Of a stretch of 47,505 bases of DNA, positions 20,495 through 29,309 are shown one piece after another. Source of the DNA: an uncultured Lentisphaeria bacterium (GTDB lineage: Bacteria > Verrucomicrobiota > Lentisphaeria > Victivallales > Victivallaceae). The notes beneath the pieces were generated by a model that was given only the letters and a program-made list of their open reading frames with translations, made no database searches and was not told the DNA's origin. Numbering within the stretch: the stretch's first letter is position 1; the number at the start of each line of letters is the position of its first letter. The stretch is taken from the NCBI GenBank assembly GCA_903831825.1, contig CAIKZE010000039.1, positions 1 through 47,505 on the forward strand, read 5' to 3'. The translations under genes were made by a program, and so were the position numbers.

Positions 20495-21541
20495 TTATTC
20501 TACCGGACGGGCGGTGCTGCGTCGAACAATAAGCGTGGTATTGATTATAGTTTCGGCGGGAGGTGTTTCGCCGCGCAGAATGATTTGCAGATTATTGCGG
20601 ATGGCTTCGGCTATTTTCGGGGTATGCTGGCTGACGCTGGTCAGATCGAGGTCTTCGGCCACCGTGGTATTGCCGAAGCCGCACAGCGAGCAGTCTTCCG
20701 GAACTCTAATGCCTTTTGAGGCAAGCAACCTGAAGACCCCGGCTGCGATGGTGTCATTGCCGCATAATATTGCCGTGGGCGGACGCTTTATGGCGAACAG
20801 TTCTCTGGCTGCATAATATCCCCATTCGCGGGATGGTTCTTTGCATTTAATATATTTTTCCGGAACCTCAATATCATGTTTTTTAAGTACGTCGAGAAAG
20901 CCTTTCAGCCGGAGTTCCGAGGTATGTTCATAAGTTCCGCTGATATGCGCAATTCTGGAATGTCCAAGACTGACAAGATGCTCAGCAATCTTTTCTGCTC
21001 CTTCATAGTCGTCAGAAATGATGCGCGGAATGTTTAATTCAGGTATAAACAGATCAAAAAAGATTACAGGAATTTTCAACTCGCGATATTTGCCGGCACA
21101 TTGGGAATTCGGGGCGGCAATTAAGGCTTCCGCGCCGGACTCTACCATGAAATCCAGTATTTTTTCTTCTTTATCTTTGATCCTGTTGGTGATATGGACT
21201 ACCGGATGCAGTCCGGCTTCACTGAGAAATTTTTCCAGCTCGGCGAAAATCTTGTAATAAAACACTTCGTCATCAGGGAAGATAAAGCCGACAATTCCGG
21301 TTTTCCTGGATAATGACGGCCTGGTTCCGACAAAGTTGCCGCGGCTTGGTTCCTTGTAAATCAAATTCTCCATTTCCAGCAACCGCAACGCTTTACGCAG
21401 AGTCAGGTGATTGACGCTGAACATATCGGAAAGAATACGTTCTGAGGGCAGGGGATCGTTTTTCTTCAGGCGCTTTTCTTTGATAAACAGCCTGATAGTC
21501 TCTGCCAGAGCGATATATTTTTCAGGTTTCCCGCGTTTCAT
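20495..21541 (-). CDS. GntR/LacI hybrid transcriptional regulator
   Basis: 348 residues. Residues 1-75 are a GntR-type winged helix (ALAETIRLFIKEKRLKKNDP, LPSERILSDMFSVNHLTLRK, ALRLLEMENLIYKEPSRGNF). From about 80 onward is a LacI/PBP1-type periplasmic-binding-protein-like sensor (VGFIFPDDEVFYYKIFAELE, IAEHLVSLGHSRIAHISG, AILCGNDTIAAGVFRLLASKGIRVPED). This AraR-like architecture normally senses a sugar or related small molecule. It is divergent from the 21789-24922 operon. Four near-identical palindromes between the two units are its best candidate operators, one lying inside the operon promoter, which fits repression. Confidence 0.93.
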   Translation of the reverse strand: MKRGKPEKYIALAETIRLFIKEKRLKKNDPLPSERILSDMFSVNHLTLRKALRLLEMENLIYKEPSRGNFVGTRPSLSRKTGIVGFIFPDDEVFYYKIFAELEKFLSEAGLHPVVHITNRIKDKEEKILDFMVESGAEALIAAPNSQCAGKYRELKIPVIFFDLFIPELNIPRIISDDYEGAEKIAEHLVSLGHSRIAHISGTYEHTSELRLKGFLDVLKKHDIEVPEKYIKCKEPSREWGYYAARELFAIKRPPTAILCGNDTIAAGVFRLLASKGIRVPEDCSLCGFGNTTVAEDLDLTSVSQHTPKIAEAIRNNLQIILRGETPPAETIINTTLIVRRSTARPVE

Positions 21542-21583
21542 GGGTCTTTTATACTTTCGCTGTTATAATGTTTATTACAGCTT

Positions 21584-21611
21584 ATTATACATCGTCCGCA
21601 AGGAAAATCAA
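21584..21611 (-). promoter_or_regulatory. Putative promoter of the GntR/LacI regulator
   Basis: On the minus strand: TTGATT (21611-21606), 16-bp spacer, TATAAT (21589-21584). The predicted start is about 35 nt before the regulator ATG at 21541. Confidence 0.6.
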
Positions 21612-21638
21612 TCAACTCAATACTATATTAATTTAAAT

Positions 21639-21753
21639 TATATCGATATATTATTATATCGATGTAATAGTAATTATGAATATAAAAAATATTTATATCG
21701 ATATATTAAAAATAACAAAAAAAGATAAATGCGGTCTTGACTATATCGACTCC
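21639..21753. promoter_or_regulatory. Cluster of four TATATCGATATA operator palindromes
   Basis: Sites: 21639-21650 (TATATCGATATA, perfect), 21655-21666 (TATATCGATGTA), 21694-21705 (TATATCGATATA, perfect), 21742-21753 (TATATCGACTCC, half-conserved). Centre spacings are 16, 39 and 48 bp. They lie between a GntR-type regulator and the divergent operon, and the fourth sits in the spacer of the operon promoter. Binding by the adjacent regulator is inferred. Confidence 0.75.
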
Positions 21754-21765
21754 ATCAGGTATCTT
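21737..21765 (+). promoter_or_regulatory. Promoter of the 21789-24922 operon, overlapped by operator 4
   Basis: TTGACT (21737-21742), exactly 17 bp, TATCTT (21760-21765). Operator-like TATATCGACTCC starts at the last base of the -35. A GGAG ribosome site precedes the ATG at 21789. Confidence 0.65.
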
Positions 21766-21788
21766 TTAATTAACGCGGAGATTTACTT

Positions 21789-22814
21789 ATGTCAGAAGTG
21801 TTAAGAAAAAGTGATAAAAATATAGTGGAACTGAATTCCGGTTCCGGTAAAATATTTATTGCCCCCGGCCTGCAAGGACGGGTGTTTTGCAGTTTAGGCA
21901 GCGAGCTTATCCATCGATTTGATGATAAACTGGCATCCAGACCGCATCCGGAAGAATTTAATAATATCGGCGGTAATTCACTTTGGCCCGCACCGGAAGG
22001 CGGCGATTTTGCATTTAATTATCTTCCCGGTTCCGGCTGGCTGGTTCAGAAAGGCATAAATTCCGACTGTCCCGGAGTAACCCGATCTGATAAGACTTCG
22101 GCGGTTGTGGAAAAAGAGATTGTTTTGAAGAACCGTAAAGGCGTTTCAGCCGGTATCAGATTTGTCCGGGATGTCAGAATTAAAGACATTTCCAGCGTCT
22201 TGTCAGGATATGAACTGGAAGGAATTGCATATTGCACCGAAGACTCGCTGGAGATGCTTGAACCTCGCAGTCCGTCTGAGTTTATGATCGGGGCCTGGTC
22301 GCTGGAACAGTTTCCGCTTCATGACGGCATTATCGCTTTCGGCCGTTTATCTTGCCCGGCGGCAGGCTGCGTCAATGATGATTTTTACGGGGACGCGTCT
22401 GCCCGGATGGCTTATGATTCAAACATTTTTACGTTCAAACTGGGCGGCGCTGACCGTTTGCAGATCGGCATCAAAAAAAGTTTCGGACCGCAGTTAATCG
22501 GCTCATATGACAAGTCCCGTTCGTTGCTGATTATCCGCCGGACGGTTTTACAGGACGGTGTTTATTTCAATATCGCGGATAACGACCAGAAGCGCGGCCC
22601 GTTTTCGGCGGCTGATGCTTACAGCATTTTTAACGGCGGGGCTCTGGGCTTTTACGAACTTGAAACGATAGCGCCCATGATAGTGGAAAACGGTTTGGTT
22701 AAAGGCAGCAGGCTGCCCTCGGAAACGCTCATATTGCGCGGCGAGGCAAATAAACTTGCGGCTTTTCTCAATAGTTCTGAAATAATGGTCAGTTCTGACC
22801 TGATAATCAATTAA
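21789..22814 (+). CDS. Galactose-mutarotase-fold-like protein (DUF6786-like)
   Basis: 341 residues, no signal peptide. The layout looks like cytoplasmic DUF6786-type/aldose-epimerase-superfamily beta-sandwich proteins: GLQGRVFCSLGSELIHRF, then NSLWPAPEGGDFAFNY, GVTRSDKTSAVVEKEI, SSVLSGYELEGIAYCTEDSL, FMIGAWSLEQFPLHDG, VNDDFYGDASARMAYDS and GIKKSFGPQLIGSYD. Members are presumed to bind or epimerise carbohydrates; no catalytic residues can be assigned with confidence. First gene of an operator-controlled operon with a polysaccharide deacetylase and an M24-fold protein, so a role in uptake or breakdown of a modified sugar is plausible (inference). Confidence 0.7.
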   Translation: MSEVLRKSDKNIVELNSGSGKIFIAPGLQGRVFCSLGSELIHRFDDKLASRPHPEEFNNIGGNSLWPAPEGGDFAFNYLPGSGWLVQKGINSDCPGVTRSDKTSAVVEKEIVLKNRKGVSAGIRFVRDVRIKDISSVLSGYELEGIAYCTEDSLEMLEPRSPSEFMIGAWSLEQFPLHDGIIAFGRLSCPAAGCVNDDFYGDASARMAYDSNIFTFKLGGADRLQIGIKKSFGPQLIGSYDKSRSLLIIRRTVLQDGVYFNIADNDQKRGPFSAADAYSIFNGGALGFYELETIAPMIVENGLVKGSRLPSETLILRGEANKLAAFLNSSEIMVSSDLIIN

Positions 22815-22824
22815 AGGTATGGAT

Positions 22825-23703
22825 ATGGATAAAATTAAAGTTGTTCTGGGATTTGACATGGAAACCGATATCGGCAGTTGGACTCCATGGTACGATGGGT
22901 TGAAAAATGGTACGCCGGTTATTTTGAATATTCTCAAAAAACACGGAATTACCGCCACATTCTTTTTTACCGGCGACAGCGCCAAAAAGAATCCGAAAGC
23001 GGTTAAGGCCGTGAAAACTGCCGGACATGAGATTGGCTGCCATACGCTGTTTCATGAGACTATCGGGGAAGCGCTGTTCGAAATTCCGGGAATGATGCCG
23101 ATATTGCCGGAGGAGGTGGAAAACCGCATTCGTCTGGCCACGGAATGGGTTGAAGAAGTCGCCGGCGTTCGTCCGGTATCGTTCCGCTGTCCGCGCTTGT
23201 TCGGTTCCACTGCCGTGGTCAATGCGCTGGAAAATCTGGGATACAAGACCGATGCCACTTATCCAATGTATTATTTCCGTGAACAACTGATTCCATATCA
23301 TCCCGCTAAAAAAGACTGGACCAGGAAAGGACGGATGAAGATTGTTGAACTGCCGAATTTCGCCGACCTGTCCATGAAGTCAAAGGATGAATTTGGCCGC
23401 GATATGGATCAGTGGCCGCTGTTCAGGACTGAAAGCGCGGATAAAGTCATGGAACATATTAACGGCTATATTGCTTTTTGCAGTAAAAAGGGCGTCGAAC
23501 CGTTCCTCTGCTTCTATTTCCACCCGTGGGAATTCTGGCCGATGCGTGAAGGGCTGATTCATTACGGGGAAGGCGCGGTCATGCCTGATCCGTTCATTAT
23601 CAAGAACTGCGGAAAATATGCGGAGGAGCAGTTTGACCTTCTGATTGGCCGCCTGAAAGAGCTTGGCGCGGAATTTTATCAGGCGCGTCAGATTACAACA
23701 TAA
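22825..23703 (+). CDS. Polysaccharide deacetylase family protein (NodB-like)
   Basis: 292 residues from the ATG at 22825, with AAAGG 7 nt upstream; the ATG at 22819 lies too close to it. The metal-dependent deacetylase barrel is recognisable: motif 1 GFDMETD (first Asp kept), HGITATFFFTGD, motif 2 GHEIGCHTLFHE (HTxxH metal pair), motif 3 RPVSFRCPRLFG, and a late FYFHPWEF. No signal peptide, unlike cell-wall deacetylases, so an intracellular N- or O-deacetylase acting on a small glycoside or amide is more likely. Second gene of the regulated operon, 10 bp after the previous stop. Confidence 0.9.
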   Translation: MDKIKVVLGFDMETDIGSWTPWYDGLKNGTPVILNILKKHGITATFFFTGDSAKKNPKAVKAVKTAGHEIGCHTLFHETIGEALFEIPGMMPILPEEVENRIRLATEWVEEVAGVRPVSFRCPRLFGSTAVVNALENLGYKTDATYPMYYFREQLIPYHPAKKDWTRKGRMKIVELPNFADLSMKSKDEFGRDMDQWPLFRTESADKVMEHINGYIAFCSKKGVEPFLCFYFHPWEFWPMREGLIHYGEGAVMPDPFIIKNCGKYAEEQFDLLIGRLKELGAEFYQARQITT

Positions 23704-23767
23704 AAGAGAGCAGATGAACTTTAGTTACCTTAAAAGTATTTAACCATAAAAAACAGGAGAATCAATC

Positions 23768-24922
23768 ATGTTTACAATCCCGAAATCAGAGTATTTGAAA
23801 AGAATCAAAGACTTCCAGAAGAACATCAAGGCCGCCGGGCTGGATGCCTGTCTGGTGCATGGCAACGAAGCGGATTTCGCCAACGTTCGCTATCTGAGTG
23901 AATACTGGCCGACTTTTGAAGCAGGCGGAGTGTTTGTTCCGGCGGAAGGCAAGGCGATATTGATTATCGGCCCGGAAAGTGAAAACTATGCCAAAGGCCG
24001 CAGCGTTATTCCCAATATCATGAAGATGGTCGAATATCGTGAATCCGCCGAACCGAACTATCCCGGCATTGCGGTAGCGCATTATCCGGATGTGGTGAAG
24101 GCTTCCGGCTGCAAAAAACTCAAAAAACTCGGGTTGGCCGGTTATTCGGTCATGACCCTGCCGGTTTATATGTCGTTGCAGAAAGAACTGCCTGGCGTCG
24201 AACTGATCAAGGCTGATCAAACGCTGCTGCCGCTGCGCTTTATCAAGAGCGCCAATGAACTGAAATGTATGCGCCGCGCCTTTGAGATCAGCGAACTTGC
24301 AATCGATGCGATTCTGGCTGAAGTCAAACCCGGGATGACTGAATTTCAGGTTATCGGCATTGCCCAGCGTGAAATCTACAAACACGGCGGCGAGTATGAA
24401 GGCCATGCGCTTTACTGTTTCTGCGGTGACCGCACCAATAACGCCATTTGCCGTCCGACCAGCAATAAACTGATCAAAAATGAAGTCATTCAGTTGAATA
24501 TCGGCGCGCGCGTCGGCGGATATTCCTCCAGTGTCGGGTTGCCGTTCTCCATCGGCAAACTGCCCGCCCGCAAAAAACGCCTGGTGGAATTCGGGCTGGT
24601 TGCGCATGAAAAAACCATGGATTTGATGGCTGCCGGCAAACCTGCCGCCGCTGTTGTCAAGAAATATGAGGAATGGGTAAAGAAACAAGGGTTCGGCAAA
24701 TACCTGCTTTACGGACCGTGTCACGCTATCGGCATGATGGAAGTCGAACAGCCCTGGATGGAATCGGTATCCACTTACGACTTGCAGGAAAACATGACGT
24801 TCCAGGTCGATACTTTCTTCTATGATGAAGACTTCGGCCTGCGCTGGGAAAACGGCGTAGCGGTCAAAAAAGGCGGAGTTGAAAGACTCTCCAGCAAATA
24901 CATCAAGATGGTAGAACTTTAA
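23768..24922 (+). CDS. M24/creatinase-fold protein with altered metal ligands
   Basis: 384 residues, GGAG before the ATG. N-terminal creatinase domain (LDACLVHGNEADFANVRYLS, FVPAEGKAILIIGPE) and C-terminal pita-bread domain. In aminopeptidase P-type enzymes five residues bind the two metals. Here the two Asp are Asn244 (QLNIGARVGG) and Ser255 (GYSSSVG), the first Glu is Asp348 (FQVDTFF), and only His319 (PCHAIGMMEVEQ) and Glu361 (RWENG) remain. This pattern fits creatinase-like, metal-independent amidinohydrolase/amidase chemistry better than peptidase activity. Third gene of the operator-controlled operon and followed by a strong terminator. Annotation as Xaa-Pro peptidase would probably be wrong. 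Confidence 0.9.
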   Translation: MFTIPKSEYLKRIKDFQKNIKAAGLDACLVHGNEADFANVRYLSEYWPTFEAGGVFVPAEGKAILIIGPESENYAKGRSVIPNIMKMVEYRESAEPNYPGIAVAHYPDVVKASGCKKLKKLGLAGYSVMTLPVYMSLQKELPGVELIKADQTLLPLRFIKSANELKCMRRAFEISELAIDAILAEVKPGMTEFQVIGIAQREIYKHGGEYEGHALYCFCGDRTNNAICRPTSNKLIKNEVIQLNIGARVGGYSSSVGLPFSIGKLPARKKRLVEFGLVAHEKTMDLMAAGKPAAAVVKKYEEWVKKQGFGKYLLYGPCHAIGMMEVEQPWMESVSTYDLQENMTFQVDTFFYDEDFGLRWENGVAVKKGGVERLSSKYIKMVEL

Positions 24923-24948
24923 CTCAAAAAACTAAATTTGAACTCTTT

Positions 24949-24980
24949 AAGACCACGCTCGCAGGCGTGGTCTTTTGCTT
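24949..24980 (+). terminator. Rho-independent terminator of the 21789-24922 operon
   Basis: Perfect 10-bp stem AAGACCACGC / GCGTGGTCTT (24949-24958 with 24965-24974) around TCGCAG, followed by TTTGCTTTTT. Confidence 0.92.
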
Positions 24981-26242: not shown

Positions 26243-26875
26243 TTGGGCAATATAAATCAAGTATTTTATTTTGGCAGCATCCCGGTGGTTCTGCCTGAAG
26301 ATACGGTTTATTCGCGTTTGGGACGGAATCGGTTTCTGAACCGGCTGCCGGAAGCGCAGAAGAACCTGATCGGAAAGTATATTGCCGAAGGAGTTGCGTT
26401 GTGCCATCCTGCCGGTTGCTGGTTAAGGCTGAACATCGTTGCAAGAACTGCGGCATCGGTGACGCTGGAAAACGGCGATACGTTCAACAGCGTCAACCTG
26501 GCGGAACTGCTGGCGTCCAGTCAGGCGGCGCTGCTGACGGCGGCAACGGTTGGCGGCGGCATCGTCGAAGCATCCTCAGCGGCTTCCGTTGCCGGAAATG
26601 GGACCAAGGCGCTGGTTTATGATGCGGTCGGGAGCGAAATGGCGGATGAAGCCATCGGCTGGATTCATGAATATGTCGGACAGCAGTTAAAACGCGGCAG
26701 CGAGAAATTAACCCGTCGGCGTTTTTCTCCCGGTTACGGAGATCTGGGACTGGAAAACCAGAAAATTATTTATGATATCTTAAATCTGGAAAAATTAGGG
26801 ATCAGGCTGAATGAAAGTCTGATAATGGTACCTGAAAAATCGGTGACCGCAATTTCCGGAATTGAACGTAATTAG
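26243..26875 (+). CDS. Methionine synthase activation-domain protein (separate subunit)
   Basis: 210 residues starting at a TTG (no in-frame ATG nearby). It matches the C-terminal reactivation domain of cobalamin-dependent MetH: VYSRLGRNRFLNRLPEAQ, LTAATVGGGIVEASSAASVA, VYDAVGSEMADEAIGWIHEY and the SAM-binding RRFSPGYGDLGLENQKIIYD. This domain uses SAM plus reduced flavodoxin to re-methylate oxidised cob(II)alamin. It is 31 bp upstream of a MetH lacking this domain, the split arrangement also known from Thermotoga and some Firmicutes. Confidence 0.88.
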   Translation: MGNINQVFYFGSIPVVLPEDTVYSRLGRNRFLNRLPEAQKNLIGKYIAEGVALCHPAGCWLRLNIVARTAASVTLENGDTFNSVNLAELLASSQAALLTAATVGGGIVEASSAASVAGNGTKALVYDAVGSEMADEAIGWIHEYVGQQLKRGSEKLTRRRFSPGYGDLGLENQKIIYDILNLEKLGIRLNESLIMVPEKSVTAISGIERN

Positions 26876-26906
26876 AGAACATTTTTAACGAGGAATGATT
26901 TAATAC

Positions 26907-29309
26907 ATGACAAGAAGCGAATTTCAACAACTGTTGACGGGAAAAATAGTGATTCTGGACGGCGCCACCGGAACTGAACTGGTGAAACGGGGCATGCCGC
27001 AGGGCGTCTGTCCGGAATTGTGGATACTTGAAAATCCAGCGGCGATGATTGAAATTCAGCAGGCTTATCGTGCGGCAGGCTCGGATATCGTATTTGTGCC
27101 GAGTTTCGGTGCTAACCGTTTTAAACTGGAAGAGTTCGGCTTGGCTGACCGGCTGGCTGAAATCAACTGTTCGCTGGCTGAACTGTCCCGCCGCGCGGCC
27201 GGAGACGGCCTGGTGTTCGGCGATCTGGCGCCTACCGGGAAATTCATCGAGCCGTTGGGCGATATTCCGTTTGAAGATGTCGTGAATGTTTACAAGGAAC
27301 AGGTCGCGGCGCTGCTGGATGGGAAGGTTGACGGGTTCGTCATTGAAACAATGATGGACATTCAGGAAACCCGGGCGGCGTTGCTGGCGGTTAAAGAATC
27401 CTGCGAACTGCCGGTCATGGTGACGATGACTTTTGACGAGCACATGCGGACGCTCACGGGCAGCGATCCGGCTTCCGCGCTGATTACGCTTCAAGCCATG
27501 GGCGCTGACGCGTTCGGCTGCAATTGTTCCACCGGTCTCGGCGATATGCTGGAAATCATCAAAAGAATCAAACCTTACGCCACGATTCCGTTGATTGCCA
27601 AACCCAATGCGGGGATACCGAAACTGGTATCGGGGAAAACGGTATTTGATATGTCGCCCCCTGCATTTGCCGCGTATGTGCCGGAACTGGCCGCCGCCGG
27701 GGTAAATATTATGGGCGGGTGCTGCGGTTCCACTCCGGAACATATCCGTGAAACGGCTCAAAGTGCAGCTCAATGCAAACCGGTACTGCCGGTCATAATA
27801 TCCTTGAGCGCGGTTTCCGCTTCCGGAAGCTATTGTCTGCTCGGCAGCGACAAGCCTTTCGCGATAGTCGGAGAGCGCATCAATCCCACCGGCAAGAAAG
27901 CGCTTCAGGCGGAATTGCGCGAGGGGAAGCTTGCCATGGTAAATAATTTTGCCCGCGAGCAAGCCGCTGCCGGGGCTGCGATTTTGGATGTCAACATGGG
28001 GCTTTCCGGAATTGATGAAAAAGCAATGATGTTAAAGGCAATTAAGATGCTGGGAAACGGGCTGCCCCTCTGCATAGATTCCACCAACAGCGAAGTCATT
28101 GAAGCGGCTCTCCGGATTTATCCCGGACGGGCGTTGGTCAACTCGATTTCCGCCGAAAAAAACAGGCTGGAAAAGACCTTGCCGGCGGCGGCCAAATATG
28201 GAGCGATGTTCATTTTGCTGCCGCTGGCGGATAATGGAATTCCGGAGACGGCTGAAGGCCGCAAGGAAATCGTCAAAAAGGTATTCGAAAAGGCGGAAAA
28301 ATATGGATATTCGAAAGCGGATATCTGTGTTGACGGCCTGATAATGACAGTTTCCTCGAATCAGAATGCCGCCGCGGTTTCGCTGGACCTGATCGAATGG
28401 TGCAGCCGCGAACTCGGGGTCAACACGATCTGCGGCTTGTCCAACGTCAGTTTCGGCATGCCTCAGCGGGGTTACATAAACAATACATTTCTTGTTATGG
28501 CGGTCAGTCGCGGCTTGAACATGGCGATTGCCAATCCGTCGGCTGAAATGCTGATGCCGCTGGTTGACGCCGGCAATGTCCTGAACGGGCGTGATTACAA
28601 AATGAAGCGCTATGTCGAAAAATACGGTGCGACGGAGCAGGGGGGCAAGGTCCTGGTCATCGTGAAAAGCGATGATCCCGCGCGGCATGTATTCAATTGC
28701 GTCGTTACCGGCGACGAAGAGAGCATTGACGGTGCGATCAACAAGGCGCTGGCGGGCGGAATAACGGCGAAAGAAATTGTTGATAAAAGTTTAATTCCCG
28801 CCATCAACCGGGTAGGGGAGCTTTATGACTGTAAAGAATATTTTCTGCCGCAACTAATTATGAGCGCCGATACCATGCGGAAAGGATTTGAGGTGCTGGA
28901 GCCGTTGCTGGAGGAACATAAATCCGCGAACGACAAGCCGAAAGCGGTAATTGTGCTGGCGACGGTGGAGGGAGATATTCACGACATCGGCAAAAATATT
29001 GTCGCTTTGATGTTAAGAAATTACGGTTTTAAGGTAGTTGACCTGGGAAAAGACATTTCCGCCAGGCACATTGTTGCCGCGGCCAGAGAAAACAATGCCG
29101 CCGTTATCGGCCTTTCGGCCTTGATGACGACAACAATGATTAAGATGCCGGAAGTTATTCAACTGGCGAAAACAGAAGGGTTGGACAAAATCAAATTCAT
29201 GGTCGGCGGCGCTGTCGTTGATCAGAGTTATGCCGATGAGATCGGGGCGGATGCTTATGCCGCGGACGCAATGGAAGCGGTCAGGATTGCACAGAAATTT
29301 ACTGCTTGA
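26907..29309 (+). CDS. metH: Cobalamin-dependent methionine synthase lacking the activation domain
   Basis: 800 residues, against about 1,200 for E. coli MetH. Domains in order: homocysteine-binding barrel (about 1-290; ILDGATGTELVKRGM, Zn ligands in GCNCSTG and MGGCCGSTPEH); methyltetrahydrofolate-binding barrel (about 315-570; FAIVGERINPTGKKALQAEL, ILDVNMGLSGIDEKAM, CGLSNVSFGMPQRGYIN); cobalamin cap (about 590-670); B12-binding Rossmann domain (about 675-800; VEGDIHDIGKNIVALML with the DxHxxG lower ligand, then SALMTTTMIKMPEV). Makes methionine from homocysteine. Reactivation is supplied by the upstream 26243 gene. No riboswitch seen upstream. Confidence 0.95.
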   Translation: MTRSEFQQLLTGKIVILDGATGTELVKRGMPQGVCPELWILENPAAMIEIQQAYRAAGSDIVFVPSFGANRFKLEEFGLADRLAEINCSLAELSRRAAGDGLVFGDLAPTGKFIEPLGDIPFEDVVNVYKEQVAALLDGKVDGFVIETMMDIQETRAALLAVKESCELPVMVTMTFDEHMRTLTGSDPASALITLQAMGADAFGCNCSTGLGDMLEIIKRIKPYATIPLIAKPNAGIPKLVSGKTVFDMSPPAFAAYVPELAAAGVNIMGGCCGSTPEHIRETAQSAAQCKPVLPVIISLSAVSASGSYCLLGSDKPFAIVGERINPTGKKALQAELREGKLAMVNNFAREQAAAGAAILDVNMGLSGIDEKAMMLKAIKMLGNGLPLCIDSTNSEVIEAALRIYPGRALVNSISAEKNRLEKTLPAAAKYGAMFILLPLADNGIPETAEGRKEIVKKVFEKAEKYGYSKADICVDGLIMTVSSNQNAAAVSLDLIEWCSRELGVNTICGLSNVSFGMPQRGYINNTFLVMAVSRGLNMAIANPSAEMLMPLVDAGNVLNGRDYKMKRYVEKYGATEQGGKVLVIVKSDDPARHVFNCVVTGDEESIDGAINKALAGGITAKEIVDKSLIPAINRVGELYDCKEYFLPQLIMSADTMRKGFEVLEPLLEEHKSANDKPKAVIVLATVEGDIHDIGKNIVALMLRNYGFKVVDLGKDISARHIVAAARENNAAVIGLSALMTTTMIKMPEVIQLAKTEGLDKIKFMVGGAVVDQSYADEIGADAYAADAMEAVRIAQKFTA

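Follow-up and report, generated by a model that had tools for sequence, protein, structure and literature searches.

The 47,505-nucleotide stretch of DNA analyzed here (the window) is contig C39 of the 5.9-Mb, 506-contig genome of an uncultured Lentisphaeria bacterium (coded G000). It carries part of a small regulon, in which a sugar-type regulator gene faces an operon of three genes encoding a DUF6786 protein with the galactose-mutarotase fold, a predicted cytoplasmic deacylase of the CE4/NodB fold, and an M24 creatinase-fold protein. Support is good for the regulon and for its co-conservation, and sugar catabolism is the likely role of the gene set; a 6-deoxyhexose substrate and an order of steps are inferred.

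We tentatively propose, with a little less than even confidence in the explanation as a whole, that a small catabolic regulon for an imported sugar-sized compound, plausibly of the 6-deoxyhexose type, is under the control of a repressor of the LacI/AraR type. As the architecture of the regulator and the layout of its sites suggest, the repressor would occupy paired TATANCGNTATA operators without inducer and keep both promoters shut, until the imported sugar or its product releases it. The regulon would then supply four cytoplasmic proteins, namely, the CE4 deacylase, the M24 protein without a full dimetal site, the mutarotase-fold protein, and a TIM-barrel glycosidase-like protein whose gene is unlinked in the window's genome and adjacent to the trio in many relatives. 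The substrate brought into the cell may be a monosaccharide or a small glycoside, with a substituted 6-deoxy-L-hexose of the rhamnose/fucose type as a plausible candidate. The glycosidase, CE4, and M24 enzymes would strip glycosidic and acyl or C-N substituents from it, and the mutarotase-fold protein might bind or equilibrate the freed sugar, which would then enter ordinary catabolism.

Co-conservation and spread of the gene set

Co-conservation was assessed in the window's own genome and in 60 relatives (61 genomes in all). The CE4 protein is encoded in 22 of them. DUF6786 is found in 19, all within those 22 (0 of the 39 genomes without the CE4 protein), and the M24 protein is found in 25, of which 21 are among the 22. 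Fisher tests support this co-occurrence (5e-13 and 2e-11); they take no account of phylogeny, but the genes are patchily distributed in the phylum. The preliminary description of this locus had set a lack of co-conservation beforehand as its main refuter, which fails because the trio is strongly co-conserved both among these genomes and across phyla. A scan of 84,980 species with the CE4 protein as the query found it at 46 to 73% identity in Lentisphaerae, Hydrogenedentota, Kiritimatiellota, Planctomycetota, Verrucomicrobia, and Armatimonadota, as well as in Bacteroidota, Spirochaetes, Clostridia, Chloroflexi, Actinobacteria, and others, many of the genomes being metagenome assembled; the gene set recurs across about a dozen phyla. 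Named strains with the genes include Oligosphaera ethanolica DSM 24202 and Membranihabitans marinus. Module genes in homologous loci were located by six-frame profile search; simple open reading frame (ORF) calling often chose antisense frames in GC-rich loci. In 45 loci from the species scan (L098 to L142), the M24 gene is close by in 33 and DUF6786 in 19. An ASRT protein, a predicted sugar sensor (PMC2739507), is encoded near the CE4 gene in 8 of the 45 and never alongside DUF6786, as if the two were interchangeable there. The trio is not mentioned in the ASRT paper (PMC2739507). A literature search found no paper on DUF6786 or on the trio and no named pathway with this gene set, and a plasmid collection contained remote deacetylases only.

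Could the genes be a chance or purely horizontal neighborhood of unrelated hydrolases with no common function? Their patchy presence, in 35 of 289 genomes of the phylum, would fit such an origin. Against it stand their co-presence in genomes, synteny across phyla, the operator common to unlinked members (see below), and a paralogous set on contig C209 of the window's genome (CE4 protein, 54% identical; M24 protein, 29%), so that this explanation is scarcely credible. Chance clustering in particular was rejected on the presence/absence profiles and the operator common to unlinked loci. In two genomes, G053 and G058, the gene set is split between loci that still have full or near operators. Separately, an M24 gene with four in-frame stops in another relative (G027:C211:1089-2171), in whose genome no deacetylase partner was found, is a decaying copy of the module.

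Regulator and operators

The regulator gene (positions 20495 to 21541, minus strand) lies just beyond the range of the preliminary description, which had placed a sugar-type regulator opposite the operon. The assignment is confirmed, since the protein joins a GntR-type helix-turn-helix head (Pfam GntR, 2.8e-11) to a LacI-type sugar-binding effector domain (Peripla_BP_3, 5.6e-29), the AraR-like architecture of AraR/LacI-type repressors, and its solved relatives include the AraR effector domain (3tb6).

The candidate operator is a 12-bp palindrome, TATATCGATATA, with TATANCGNTATA as the consensus across the family. Operator 1 (21639 to 21650), whose position is conserved in relatives, and operator 2 (21694 to 21705), 55 bp away, are both copies of TATATCGATATA; an imperfect copy, TATATCGATGTA, is found at 21655 to 21666. 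A half operator, TATATCGA (21742 to 21753), overlaps the -35 element and spacer of the promoter-like site of the operon (TTGACT-17-TATCTT; 21737 to 21765, plus strand). The promoter-like site of the regulator gene (TTGATT-16-TATAAT) is at 21584 to 21611 on the minus strand; both promoter-like sites come from a consensus scan only. Four ATCGAT palindromes had been described here, but the intergenic region has three (21642, 21658, and 21697), the next one being inside the DUF6786 gene (21913). Because ATCGAT is depleted window-wide (6 observed versus 20.9 expected), the three clustered within 61 bp in the gap between regulator and operon exceed chance.

In the whole 5.9-Mb genome, TATATCGATATA has 3 copies and a mirrored control has 0. 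Two of the three are those between regulator and operon, and the third (C406:15071) precedes the unlinked fourth gene; candidate operators, in the form of conserved palindromic sites, would thus stand before linked and unlinked target genes alike. Among related loci, four genomes have paired TATANCGNTATA sites at a spacing of 55 to 56 bp and three have them at 45 bp, and by our own reading a full operator is present in about 14 of 17 testable loci of the same gene-set type. Across 16 chosen regulon loci, sites of the form ATA-N-CG-N-TAT number 23 in 3.7 kb of front regions versus 1 in the other 283 kb, a count in which the front regions were hand-picked and site-less loci were left out. In G053 and G058, where the M24 gene is in a separate locus, this locus has a near-match site, TATATCACTATA. 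Of the relaxed operator matches elsewhere in G000, three that were inspected (on C385, C416, and C221) are inside unrelated ORFs and were taken as background.

Two further genes are associated with such sites. In G001 and G002, the start of one gene is overlapped by a perfect TATATCGATATA (L187:5372 and L188:4436, respectively). By eye, this gene looks like a GH4-type glycosidase gene, and it is divergent from an AraC-like gene; it was not found in the window's genome and is possibly another regulon member. In both G053 (L194:3641-4585) and G058 (equivalent in L195), the near-operator TATATCACTATA is followed by a gene resembling, by eye, that of a sugar isomerase of the xylose isomerase type; this gene is located between the M24 gene and a close relative of the regulator gene.

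An unlinked glycosidase-like gene in the regulon

The third TATATCGATATA copy is about 115 bp upstream of a gene of a TIM-barrel glycosidase-like family, members of which adjoin the trio in 18 of 31 whole-genome loci and 12 of 45 species-scan loci. The regulon had been called self-contained, which is not borne out as worded because an operator also precedes this unlinked gene. In G000, one half of the gene (L037:15196-15757, on C406) runs into foreign sequence near the contig end, and the other half opens contig C316 (L088:1-1461). Since both halves stop matching the intact G002 gene at one common point, beyond which repeat-like and insertion-element-like sequence follows, the gene is apparently interrupted by an insertion in this assembly. 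The genome G001 and the sister genome G002 have it intact, preceded by TATATCGATATA and TATACCGATATA.

No Pfam family was found for the relatives tested, and a sequence search for related solved structures gave no match. The predicted model of one relative (L133; predicted local distance difference test [pLDDT] score, 82) is a TIM barrel with helical domains whose nearest solved folds are those of glycoside hydrolase (GH) families GH138, GH20, GH89, and GH84, and the family has two invariant glutamates, E332 and E410. The family is expanded in G000, with 16 matches (e.g., L089, L090, L094, and L097), often of 700 to 990 amino acids.

Proteins of the operon

The preliminary description of the locus is confirmed in part. 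What stands, besides the regulator, is a three-gene operon of a mutarotase-fold-like, a deacetylase-fold, and a creatinase-fold protein, all three assigned by Pfam and on the plus strand; their lack of signal peptides, from inspection of the N termini; and the intrinsic terminator at the end of the operon (24949 to 24974, plus strand; 11-bp stem, 4-base loop, and T-rich tail).

The first gene (21789 to 22814) encodes the DUF6786 protein (PF20583, 2.9e-25). A sequence search for solved relatives gave no match; the predicted model (pLDDT, 91) matches aldose 1-epimerases in the PDB (3nre, with an E value of 1.6e-9 and TM scores of 0.52 to 0.60, and also 3q1n and 4bze), which bears out the mutarotase fold. 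Alignments of 16 and 39 sequences contain no invariant His, and the catalytic His-Glu pair of GalM is not found; E290 and E292 are conserved. Mutarotase activity is not assured because of this missing His.

The second gene (22819 to 23703) encodes the CE4 protein (PF01522, 5.1e-22). Its Asp/His-His metal motif and catalytic His are intact, with D13, E15, H75, H79, R123, and H235 each present in 95% or more of the 71 sequences aligned; deacetylase activity is a prediction. The N terminus, MDMDKIKVVLGFDMETD, opens directly with the fold, and by inspection no signal peptide for export is present. The subfamily has a very strongly conserved signature of its own (RDxDQWPLFRT and FYFHPWEF), and the protein scores far under every NCBIfam cutoff. 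PuuE is among its solved relatives, at a weak match of 1.4e-5 to 2.8e-5.

The M24 protein, encoded by the third gene (23768 to 24922; Pfam M24, 3.9e-29; Creatinase_N, 4.2e-15), has lost two of the five ligands (D, D, H, E, E) of dimetal peptidases. Compared with 2zsg, N244 and S255 are replacements, and H319, D348, and E361 are kept; in copies of the C209 type, the first two positions are G and V. A peptidase role is unlikely because these metal ligands are lost. Invariant residues are found in both domains (E34, Y42, E51, E70, S71, H319, E325, E327, D348, R359, and E361). Creatinase (1chm/7yto) is among the solved relatives, and all NCBIfam cutoffs, including those for ectoine hydrolase and DddP, are far above the score of the protein. 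Creatinase works without a metal, and the ligand pattern and invariant residues would fit a metal-poor creatinase-type catalyst better than a peptidase.

The same loss of two ligands would suit an explanation in which the M24 protein is a nonenzymatic structural or regulatory partner of the CE4 protein and DUF6786 serves solely to sense sugar, leaving the unit with a single deacylation to perform. The absence of a conserved His from DUF6786 points the same way, as does its replacement in 8 of 45 loci by ASRT, for which sugar sensing is likewise predicted (PMC2739507), the two never occurring together. However, a scaffold should not require as many invariant polar residues as the M24 protein keeps in its two domains, and creatinase is itself active in the metal-free state; we regard this explanation as improbable.

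Neighboring genes and the class of substrate

Genes beside homologous loci in other bacteria bear on the substrate. The L-rhamnose mutarotase RhaM is encoded near the module in two loci over the curated cutoff and in one just below it, and RhaM- or RhaT-type neighbors are found in Bacteroidota, Planctomycetota, and Limisphaerales. Locus L123 (labeled SAR324) has an L-fucose dehydrogenase over cutoff beside fuconolactonase-like and aldo-keto reductase genes. In L131, genes for a UxaA-like dehydratase and an Amidohydro_2 protein are found beside those for RhaM and RhaT, a set that resembles the Campylobacter jejuni fuc operon, which encodes a dehydratase, a hydrolase, and a mutarotase (PMC6946681). 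Several homologous loci encode GHL6/GH42M proteins. These we take to be typical of GH151 fucosidases. Genes for dual-ATPase sugar ATP-binding cassette (ABC) transporters, a class known for monosaccharides, are found near the pair in Clostridia, Spirochaetes, and Tessaracoccus. Taken together, the neighbors of RhaM, RhaT, fucose, and sugar transporter type favor the import of a compound the size of a monosaccharide; that it is a 6-deoxyhexose is favored less firmly. The recurring sugar transporters also fit the earlier claim that the substrate is imported.

Several observations weigh against the proposed regulon for an imported 6-deoxyhexose-type compound. The Fisher tests on presence and absence in the 61 genomes (5e-13 and 2e-11) ignore relatedness, and no recognizable operator was found in the loci of G010, G028, and G035, among the 17 testable. 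The RhaT-type symporters score below equivalog cutoffs. Most nearby short-chain dehydrogenase/reductase (SDR) genes are not fucose dehydrogenase genes, and because those near four other loci fail as such, the fucose link rests on L123 and L131. The Lentisphaeria operons contain no transporter, RhaM-type mutarotase, or fucose/rhamnose enzyme; neither a dehydrogenase-lactonase-dehydratase set nor an isomerase-kinase-aldolase set is present in the window operon, and genes of the dehydrogenase, lactonase, or dehydratase type occur only beside some homologous loci. Finally, a creatininase-family gene is located between the glycosidase-like and M24 genes in the G042 operon (L105:11063-11809, equal to L049:12854-13600), and a ureidoglycolate-lyase-like gene directly follows the M24 and CE4 genes in a Ruminiclostridium-labeled genome (L135:8897-9370); these two suggest nitrogenous substrates instead.

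These two genes make C-N substrates possible, and the folds, together with the creatininase-family gene in one operon, do the same for C-N chemistry. A unit that degrades a nitrogenous small molecule of the creatinine, hydantoin, or ureide type, with the CE4 protein acting like the allantoinase PuuE, the M24 protein acting like creatinase, and the sugar-type genes being incidental or serving an N-glycoside, would draw on both genes, on PuuE and creatinase as solved relatives, and on the M24 protein lacking metal ligands, as creatinase needs none. Yet creatininase- and ureidoglycolate-lyase-type genes are found in 1 or 2 of about 75 loci, the PuuE match is weak, and the regulator, mutarotase fold, ASRT, RhaM, RhaT, glycosidases, and sugar ABC transporters recur, which makes such a role decidedly improbable. 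A relative of the creatininase-family gene (57% identical) is also found beside two glycosidase-like paralogues in G000 (L092:6643-7416).

In the version of the preliminary description, an amino sugar, either N-acetylated or amide linked, may be opened inside the cell by the unit; the CE4 protein would de-N-acetylate it and the M24 protein would cut a C-N bond before the sugar is processed. The intact CE4 motif, the creatinase fold of the M24 protein, and the N-acetylhexosaminidases of GH20, GH84, and GH89 among the fold neighbors of the glycosidase-like partner are consistent with this scheme. In contrast, no amino-sugar gene (N-acetylglucosamine-6-phosphate deacetylase or glucosamine-6-phosphate deaminase) was found among the scanned part of the neighbors of homologous loci, and those sugar genes that were seen belong to deoxyhexose or generic types; we consider an amino sugar unlikely, though worth weighing. 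The preliminary interpretation as a whole is partly supported; its co-conserved catabolic unit under a sugar-type regulator is borne out.

If the proposed explanation is right, DUF6786, the CE4 and M24 subfamilies, and a large unnamed TIM-barrel family could be assigned to a regulon, to a class of function, and to a class of substrates open to testing, and the automatic names "polysaccharide deacetylase" and "Xaa-Pro peptidase," given from similarity alone, would mislead. The carriers are bacteria of rumen, gut, groundwater, and marine habitats. A bolder possibility, which we consider less likely than not, is that a small deoxysugar derivative is degraded by a pathway that has so far escaped description and has spread horizontally. 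Its creatinase-fold enzyme, with a depleted metal site, and its cytoplasmic CE4-fold enzyme would carry out reactions on sugars that neither family is known for; DUF6786 and a new family of glycoside hydrolases would take part, and in Lentisphaeria all of these would be under one newly defined regulator/operator pair.

Elsewhere in the window, MetH is split (26243 to 29309): a methionine synthase without the activation domain (26907 to 29309) is adjoined by a separate 210-amino-acid protein (26243 to 26875) with a weak match to that domain.

Comparison with known systems

The regulator resembles Bacillus AraR and other LacI-type sugar repressors in domain architecture and in its divergent position to the operon, and like them it has paired palindromic operators a few helical turns apart, as in looping. 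The AraR operator is ATTTGTACGTACAAAT, and TATATCGATATA is unlike it. As in L-fucose oxidation operons (C. jejuni fuc and Xanthomonas) and L-rhamnose operons, the module stands beside mutarotase, dehydrogenase, lactonase, dehydratase, or RhaT-type genes in several phyla, whereas the window operon has none of their enzymes; to our knowledge, none of the four module families is part of any fuc or rha operon described so far. The family of the fourth protein, with its two invariant glutamates, has its closest solved folds in GH138, GH89, GH20, and GH84 but differs from them in lacking a Pfam family and any sequence match to solved structures. DUF6786 has the same fold as the GalM/YphB aldose 1-epimerases (3nre, 3q1n, and 4bze), from which it differs in having no invariant His and in being unrelated by sequence search. 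The CE4 protein has the fold and the metal and catalytic motif residues of CE4/NodB deacetylases, including PuuE allantoinase and the XrtA type; in contrast to these, it is predicted to be cytoplasmic, has its own signature, and is encoded beside monosaccharide transporters in other phyla. The M24 protein differs from creatinase, ectoine hydrolase, and prolidase in its ligand pattern (N, S, H, D, E), and it has the same two-domain M24 fold with Creatinase_N as these enzymes, among which creatinase is likewise without a full dimetal site.

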